Shown: positions 48,447 to 49,059 of the stretch, one piece after another | Position numbering within the stretch: the stretch's first letter is position 1 | How the letters are laid out: every line of letters begins with the position of its first letter | Assembly: GCA_022842595.1 (NCBI GenBank) | Contig: JALHPF010000004.1 | Location: forward strand, 1-64,000 | Length of the DNA: 64,000 bases | Direction: 5' to 3' | Source: Rubrivivax sp. | Lineage (GTDB): Bacteria; Pseudomonadota; Gammaproteobacteria; Burkholderiales; Burkholderiaceae_C | Translations under genes and position numbers: made by a program | The notes under the pieces: generated by a model | Database searches by the model: none | Told to the model about the DNA's origin: nothing | The model's input: only the letters and a program-made list of their open reading frames with translations

Positions 48447-48673
48447 CAGCATGGCCGGGCATCGGCCGTGCATCGGTGGCCTTGTTTCCTGAGCTCCTTC
48501 CACTCGACGGGCACAGACTGTTCCTGCGCGGGCTGGGTGCCGCCGGGCGGTGCGGAGTGAGGCGTGAAGCCCACGAAGCCATGGAACGCCAGAACCGGGC
48601 GATGCCGGCGCACCTGCGCGGTGGAAGCACGCTAACGGCTCGTTGCGGTCGTTCGCTTGCCACCGTTTCCCTT

Positions 48674-48803
48674 GGATCAGGCGGCTGGGGTGTGTTGCTC
48701 CGCTCATGTCCCCGGCCGGCTGCCGACCTAGTGCCTGCGGCACCAGGTCGGCAGCCGGCTCCTCCTTTACTTCGCTGCGCAACACACCCCAGCCACCTGA
48801 TCC
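48674..48803 (+). other. Large hairpin element A: variable outer and inner stems around conserved internal-loop strands
   Basis: Outer stem GGATCAGG.GGCTGGGGTGTGTTGC (48674-48698) / GCAACACACCCCAGCC.CCTGATCC (48779-48803), one mismatch; loop strand TCCGCTCATGTCCCC (48699-48713); inner stem GCCGGCTGCCGACCT-a-GTGCC-TGC-GGCAC-c-AGGTCGGCAGCCGGC (48715-48759); loop strand TCCTCCTTTACTTCGCTGC (48760-48778). Confidence 0.85.
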
Positions 48804-48841
48804 GGCCGCGGGTTTTTGCATTCCACCGTTGCGCGCCAACA

Positions 48842-48982
48842 CCTTGGCGGGCTGGGTGAGTCGGGTGGCCCCCGCAGTGAAGTAAAGGAGGAGCCATGGG
48901 TCCGCCTGAAGCCGCAGGCTTCGGGCGGGCCCATGGCGGGGGACATGAACGGAGGGGGCCACCCGACTCGCCCAGCCCAAGG
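48842..48982 (-). other. Large hairpin element B: same architecture and loop motifs as A, opposite orientation, different stems
   Basis: On minus strand: outer stem GGCTGGGCGAGTCGGGTGGCCCCC / GGGGGCCACCCGACTCACCCAGCC (48954-48977 with 48850-48873); loop strand TCCGTTCATGTCCCCC (48938-48953); inner stem GCCATGGGCCCGCC.GAAGCC-TGC-GGCTTC.GGCGGACCCATGGC (48893-48937); loop strand TCCTCCTTTACTTCACTGC (48874-48892). Confidence 0.85.
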
Positions 48983-49059
48983 GGCCAACGTAGCGTGCCG
49001 TTGGCACGCAAACCGAAGTCCGCAACAGGCCGAGAGCAGTCCCGCCTGAACCCGTGCCG

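Follow-up and report, generated by a model that had tools for sequence, protein, structure and literature searches.

A large-hairpin pair repeated in Rubrivivax and other Burkholderiales that may be a REPIN-like mobile element read as folded single-stranded DNA

Introduction

REPINs are believed to owe their movement to RAYT enzymes that act on folded single-stranded DNA (PMC3116915, PMC8266576), and the attC sites of integrons are likewise recognised as a folded single strand, the sequence of the stem being variable (PMC8266576). BRE is a GC-rich repeat of 75-91 bp from Bordetella and other Betaproteobacteria, including Rhodoferax and Polaromonas (PMC3110155). Burkholderiales-1 is given as a structured motif of uncertain status as an RNA and without an Rfam entry (PMC2864571).

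The repeat described here lies in a stretch of 64,000 nucleotides (the window) at positions 1 to 64,000 of contig JALHPF010000004.1, from a draft genome of Rubrivivax sp. (the host genome; GCA_022842595.1). It contains two large hairpins in inverted orientation. The stems covary, as does the purine-rich internal loop via non-canonical pairs, and the conserved hairpin is that of the G-rich strand whichever way the host genes run. The element has copies at numerous sites, the orthologous sites of congeners lack it, and within genomes it has been amplified as pairs. We give about even credence to the reading that this is a non-autonomous mobile DNA element, REPIN-like in being an inverted pair of large hairpins, that is recognised as folded single-stranded DNA by an enzyme that is apparently not RAYT.

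Results

Structure of the window copy

A preliminary description of the window reported two opposed hairpins with specific loop strands, and these are present in the sequence at 48674-48982. It also took the hairpins as the limits of the element and as two units in a REPIN/BIME-like inverted layout. The hairpins and the layout stand, but the element does not end there and the hairpins are not independent elements: both lie inside one 395-bp repeat with terminal inverted repeats, and the unit is the pair inside this larger mobile repeat.

The whole repeat (48637..49031), the ends of which are common to host-genome copies, runs from a terminal repeat through hairpin A, a spacer and hairpin B to the second terminal repeat. 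The terminal inverted repeats are 19 bp. The left one, GGCTCGTTGCGGTCGTTCG (48637..48655, plus strand), has one mismatch to the consensus GGCCCGTTGCGGTCGTTCG, and the right one, GGCCTGTTGCGGACTTCGG on the minus strand (49013..49031), forms the other end of the element and is more degenerate. Hairpin A has its conserved fold on the minus strand (48677..48799; 87.7 bits with covariance model R1, 0 non-standard pairs), with the 5′ loop strand GCGAAGTAAAGGAGGA at 48760..48775 and the 3′ loop strand GGGGACATGAGCGG at 48700..48713, both on the minus strand. The conserved fold of hairpin B is on the plus strand (48853..48975; 90.1 bits with R1, 0 non-standard pairs), as are its 5′ loop strand GTGAAGTAAAGGAGGAG (48877..48893) and 3′ loop strand GGGGGACATGAACGG (48938..48952); all four loop strands were assigned from the sequence and from loop covariation. 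The spacer between the outer stems is 53 nt by the model ends (48800..48852), the typical spacing being 50-54 nt. Model R1 was built from other genomes and one other host-genome copy. In a shuffling test the window hairpins gave z values of -7.6 and -7.2, and for each of them 0 of 200 shuffles were as stable. To judge from their translations, the flanking genes, whose 3′ ends face the element, presumably encode a TRAP transporter and an alpha/beta-hydrolase.

Covariation of the stems and internal loop

Near-perfect pairing of the stems had been reported and is correct, but it was described for the C-rich strand, and the complementary G-rich strand is more informative. Because each mismatch of the C-rich strand turns into a G.T wobble, the window stems are uninterrupted on the G-rich strand, with 21 of 21 pairs formed in the outer stem and 21 of 21 in the inner stem. 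The DNA fold energy of the G-rich strand is -56.0 kcal/mol for hairpin A and -53.0 kcal/mol for hairpin B, against -50.0 and -43.9 kcal/mol for the C-rich strand.

Alignment of 47 diverse hairpins is gapless across the 21-bp outer stem. All 21 pairs vary on both sides somewhere in this seed alignment, yet 96.3% of cells are paired (60.7% in shuffled and ∼40% in slid controls) and the covariation score is 0.905, compared with 0.20 after shuffling, which bears out the earlier proposal that the stems change in sequence while keeping their pairing, under selection for structure plus a fixed loop. Non-Watson-Crick pairs in the seed stems, read on the strand bearing GGAGG/GGGGGACA, are G.T rather than A.C at 96:6. 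Over all model matches the ratio is 501:22 in 273 outer stems, which were found by a G-U-aware model, though with scores far above threshold. Biased mutation during replication or transcription should not single out one strand, because the paired hairpins are oppositely oriented. Template-switch repair of palindromes was rejected as sole source of the covariation, as it would leave the strand asymmetry unexplained.

Columns 11-15 of the outer stem carry a conserved GGGTG and its partner amid an otherwise free stem, with columns 14 and 15 often T.G and G.T. This block is about one helical turn from the loop and may be a second contact.

The preliminary description regarded the loop strands as nearly invariant and unpaired. 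The strands are as it gave them, while the positions are mostly covarying non-canonical pairs. The invariance in the seed set is partly ascertainment, because the seeds were picked by exact loop strings, and loop variation was read from 299 aligned model matches in which exact strings were not required. In these matches GAA facing UGA interchanges with GGC/GCC or GAA/UUC, and the GAA/UGA face can be read as sheared G.A, A.G, then A-U. Within GGAGG/GGGGG, A faces G in 265 cases, this is swapped to G facing A in 28, and 6 are otherwise. The two differences between the loop strands of hairpins A and B (TTC[G/A]C and CG[C/T]TC) also face each other and make one compensatory pair, C-G in hairpin A and T-A in hairpin B. 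As the loop varies in this paired manner, much of it behaves like a non-canonical helix. Of 296 outer stems, 238 terminate in a 3x3 loop of the form GNA/GNA. The inner loops are for the most part C-GNA-G triloops (110 of the 150 triloops), the complementary TNC type occurs once and RNA-type tetraloops are few. The C-GNA-G triloop is reported to be an extraordinarily stable fold in DNA (PMC6582339).

Copy number and spread

A covariance-model search, as proposed in the preliminary description, revealed abundant further copies, with 51 matches in the host genome; in the family, 61 of the 121 genomes sampled, almost every one from a different genus, have at least one match. Many host copies lie no more than a few hundred bases from the end of a contig. 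The repeat is thus a probable cause of breaks in the assembly, and the copy number is a minimum. Searching the host genome for TCCTCCTTTACTTC found 46 copies that are exact and 3 that differ at one position; with the pattern reversed there were 2. Most of the TCCTCCTTTACTTC copies sit within the same hairpin type. Host-genome copies begin and end in GGCCCGTTGCGGTCGTTCG-like inverted repeats and are 395-576 bp long where both ends are visible; this consensus, at ≤2 mismatches, occurs at 60 places in the genome and its reversed pattern at 3. Other MITE-type ends, short and TTTTGTACG-like, were seen by eye in genome G649, and terminal repeats are not shared between genera. No target-site duplication is evident at the element ends, which are degenerate.

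Inner stems are swapped or replaced module-wise among host-genome copies. A second large hairpin type, with the outer stem GGGCTGGGGCTGGCTGTGGCGC and ∼230 nt inside, is the partner in many host copies (L008, L026, L028, L030 and others), and some hairpins of this type have their interior deleted between CGCCGAGGA repeats. Four copies (L044, L196, L197 and L040) carry a module CCGGACACAAACAGTCC..GGACTGTTTGTGCCTGG plus a CCCAGGGC hairpin, which either replaces the inner stem or lies within a hairpin of the second type, so that hairpins are nested within hairpins. Host copy L198 lacks the inner stem and its loop strands are joined directly (AGCGAAGTAAAGGCGGGGGACATGAGC).

The family sample includes another genome from this genus, which had 0 matches; two other genera had 48 and 62. 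Genomes with the exact loop, among the matches listed, belong to Hydrogenophaga, Variovorax, Rhodoferax, Rubrivivax, Methylibium, Aquabacterium and Sulfurisoma, and the matches listed from outside Burkholderiales are in Luteimonas, Pseudoxanthomonas and Lysobacter. A class sample of 196 genomes, run with stricter filters by which weak matches are lost, gave only 3 with a match, and one of the 3 is from outside the order. The exact loop pattern was absent from the viral contigs searched, and viral carriage was rejected.

Polymorphic presence at orthologous loci, another check proposed earlier, was found. At the sites of three other host copies, several congeners (of two to seven that were examined for each) have the two flanking genes joined and no element between them, although the insertion point could be placed only roughly because most congeners are ∼80% identical at these sites. 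Judged by sequence comparison, the empty orthologous sites show insertion; they belong to copies of the family other than the one at 48637-49031. No excision product or target-site duplication was seen at the compared sites. At the empty site in congener G706 that matches host C4:71390 (L282), a short palindrome, GGCCGCTGCGGGCC, stands where the host has terminal repeats, and may be either a remnant or the original target. In several genomes checked, one pair whose two stems differ from each other recurs as near-copies, and in Hydrogenophaga pseudoflava and others the stems are unrelated across loci and still paired.

Orientation and neighbouring genes

Inverted pairs are almost always arranged '-+', with the G-strands pointing outwards (121, versus 2 '+-'). 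The groups counted also include 6 single hairpins, and one '-+-' triple was found elsewhere. Most pairs have their outer stems 50-54 nt apart, with a cluster near 52, and smaller numbers are spaced near 103, 145-164 and 200. These distances possibly correspond to multiples of about five helical turns or to repeated spacer units. The spacers have no evident promoter and contain only weak GC-rich k-mers, such as GCGGTG. The genes on either side of a pair are co-directional or convergent, and divergent intergenic regions are avoided (P 0.003-0.005). Insertion beside intrinsic terminators was considered and not accepted (10 of 207 flanks versus 10 of 478 in the background, P 0.08). Neighbours are often catabolic or uptake operons, including pccBA, LivF-type ABC genes, aldehyde dehydrogenases, a LigB-like dioxygenase and TctC-like proteins.

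A host site for DNA structure, at which a nucleoid, topoisomerase or repair protein binds a cruciform or hairpin and which is spread by rare recombination with no dedicated enzyme involved, would fit the large perfect palindromic stems, the intergenic placement, the spacing near 52 nt with its minor group near 103 and the retention of old copies with unrelated stems. A role of this kind has been proposed for BIMEs. We hold it to be improbable here, as patchy presence between related genera and within a genus, insertion polymorphism and bursts within genomes suggest active spread, and only one strand is conserved, which a cruciform would not require.

In the pccB-pccA intergenic region the element is at the orthologous place in seven genomes (L047, L094, L099, L116, L157, L188 and L253), which are related by descent and not independent. 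Of 28 pairs, 18 have changed on both sides. In each genome the sense hairpin is the better of the two; it is intact, while the antisense hairpin has decayed. This looks like local adoption of one hairpin by the host.

Function in host transcripts should lead antisense hairpins to lose the strand signature, and they keep it. G.T:A.C is 129:6 in antisense and 102:4 in sense hairpins, and bit scores outside pccB-pccA do not favour the sense hairpin (29 of 55, with genes taken from ORF predictions made for this analysis). A general cis-acting mRNA element was rejected on the lack of sense bias in bit score or pairing and on the inverted pairs, with pccB-pccA the sole exception. We also consider it unlikely that the G-strand hairpin acts more broadly as a structured RNA in transcripts (intercistronic, in a 3′ region or as its own sRNA, possibly an autonomous one running outwards from the spacer), binding protein or, via AAGGAGG, the ribosome, with the copies spreading by some process unrelated to it. 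Such an RNA would explain why the covariation includes G.U and tandem G.A, which RNA helices also have, why the sites are in probably transcribed regions and why the sense hairpin is better conserved in the seven pccB-pccA genomes. It is at odds with a signature that is no weaker when the G-strand runs antisense to its operon, with the absence of a general sense bias, with triloops of the DNA-stable GNA type and few RNA tetraloops, and with spacers lacking an evident promoter. The preliminary description had left open the choice between a structured ncRNA and a hairpin recognised as single-stranded DNA. A structured element is confirmed, and the evidence leans to single-stranded DNA, the strand signature and GNA triloops being features that would favour a folded single DNA strand.

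Searches for a mobilising enzyme

A linked RAYT transposase had been suggested. No match to RAYT (Y1_Tnp, PF01797) was found in the host genome, a draft that is 94.9% complete, or in several other high-copy genomes, and across the 121 genomes PF01797 is not associated with the element (46 of 61 positives versus 43 of 60 negatives, P 0.68). Four RAYT loci of element-bearing genomes had 0 model matches. RAYT was rejected as the mobiliser on these grounds. That the repeat is a true REPIN, an inverted REP pair moved by a RAYT (Y1) transposase, is accordingly very improbable despite its inverted, intergenic pairs, tens of copies and strand-selective hairpins: in addition to the missing and unassociated PF01797 and the four RAYT loci without the element, GTAG is found near the stem base in just 11 of 248, and the hairpins are about 100-140 nt compared with 20-50. 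As REPIN membership fails on these points, a REPIN-like element with another enzyme is proposed. A conserved neighbour gene was also rejected as mobiliser; clustering of ORFs at 116 loci gave metabolic families that are common in these genomes (LivF-type ABC transport, acyl-CoA and aldehyde dehydrogenases, pccA/pccB) and no recurrent transposase.

Discussion

For a mobile hairpin pair recognised as folded single-stranded DNA, the following steps are envisaged. When the locus is single-stranded, for example as lagging-strand template, the G-strand would fold. A trans-acting protein that recognises folded single-stranded DNA would bind the two hairpins, each on its own strand, by their loop and stems, and the bound protein would copy or move the pair. 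The mobilising enzyme is apparently not a RAYT/Y1 transposase, and the host may afterwards retain some copies, as the pccB-pccA site suggests. It is from the conserved G-strand fold in a mobile pair that we infer an enzyme reading that fold.

Several observations count against this mobile element. ORF clustering yielded no recurrent transposase, and neither target-site duplication nor excision product was seen. Retention with compensatory change at pccB-pccA fits an RNA or host role there, and G.T and sheared G.A pairs are typical of RNA too. Old, unrelated and well-paired copies are something that mere transposition would not maintain. A wider claim is made more tentatively, namely that a mobile family read as folded single-stranded DNA, present in half of the sampled genera and in Xanthomonadales, is served by a non-Y1/RAYT enzyme whose recognition signal is the purine-purine core (G.G, A.G; possibly a two-tier G-quadruplex).

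If these readings are true, REPIN-like mobile hairpin pairs are not bound to RAYT transposases, and a second system reading folded single-stranded DNA is at work in Burkholderiales and Xanthomonadales. Stems that vary freely around a fixed loop amount to a natural selection experiment, useful for finding the binding protein. The repeat coincides with many contig breaks in the draft host genome, and such structured intergenic DNA could pass mistakenly for riboswitches or sRNAs.

No Rfam family scores above its gathering score for the hairpins, and weak hits to animal and plant miRNA models are far below threshold and reflect the chance resemblance of any long hairpin to such models. The motif was not found described in the literature, and the loop strings are absent from the relevant paper texts searched. 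The element is unnamed here. That it has already been described as BRE or Burkholderiales-1 is possible though doubtful, and would be compatible with any reading of the mechanism. BRE shares with it a GC-rich intergenic repeat of similar length, overlapping genera and features of mobility, but it is described as forming tandem arrays of variable copy number (PMC3110155), in contrast to the 121 '-+' inverted pairs found here. Burkholderiales-1 is alike by description as a structured motif in Burkholderiales (PMC2864571).

MRSC-65-2 (PMC11109978) is similar in that it has one long stem that covaries, occurs in dozens of copies in a genome and possibly acts as DNA; by description it differs in having conserved UYCCGG repeats, and loop strands such as those found here are not described for it. 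MITEs such as Correia/NEMIS and ERIC are short non-autonomous repeats and, like the host-genome version of the element, have terminal inverted repeats, but the conserved signal here is the hairpin structure plus loop, and the terminal repeats are not common between genera. With integron attC sites there is only a resemblance, as no cassette array or attC boxes were noticed. The REP unit of REPIN/BIME systems is a palindrome of 20-50 nt with GTAG, whereas the hairpins here are ∼100-140 nt with a fixed purine-rich internal loop (99 positions in the model), the stems of one pair are unrelated in sequence, and RAYT (TnpA-REP) is absent from the host and without association elsewhere. Shared with REPIN/BIME are the non-autonomous inverted hairpin pairs in intergenic positions, the tens of copies, the recognition of one hairpin strand and amplification within genomes.
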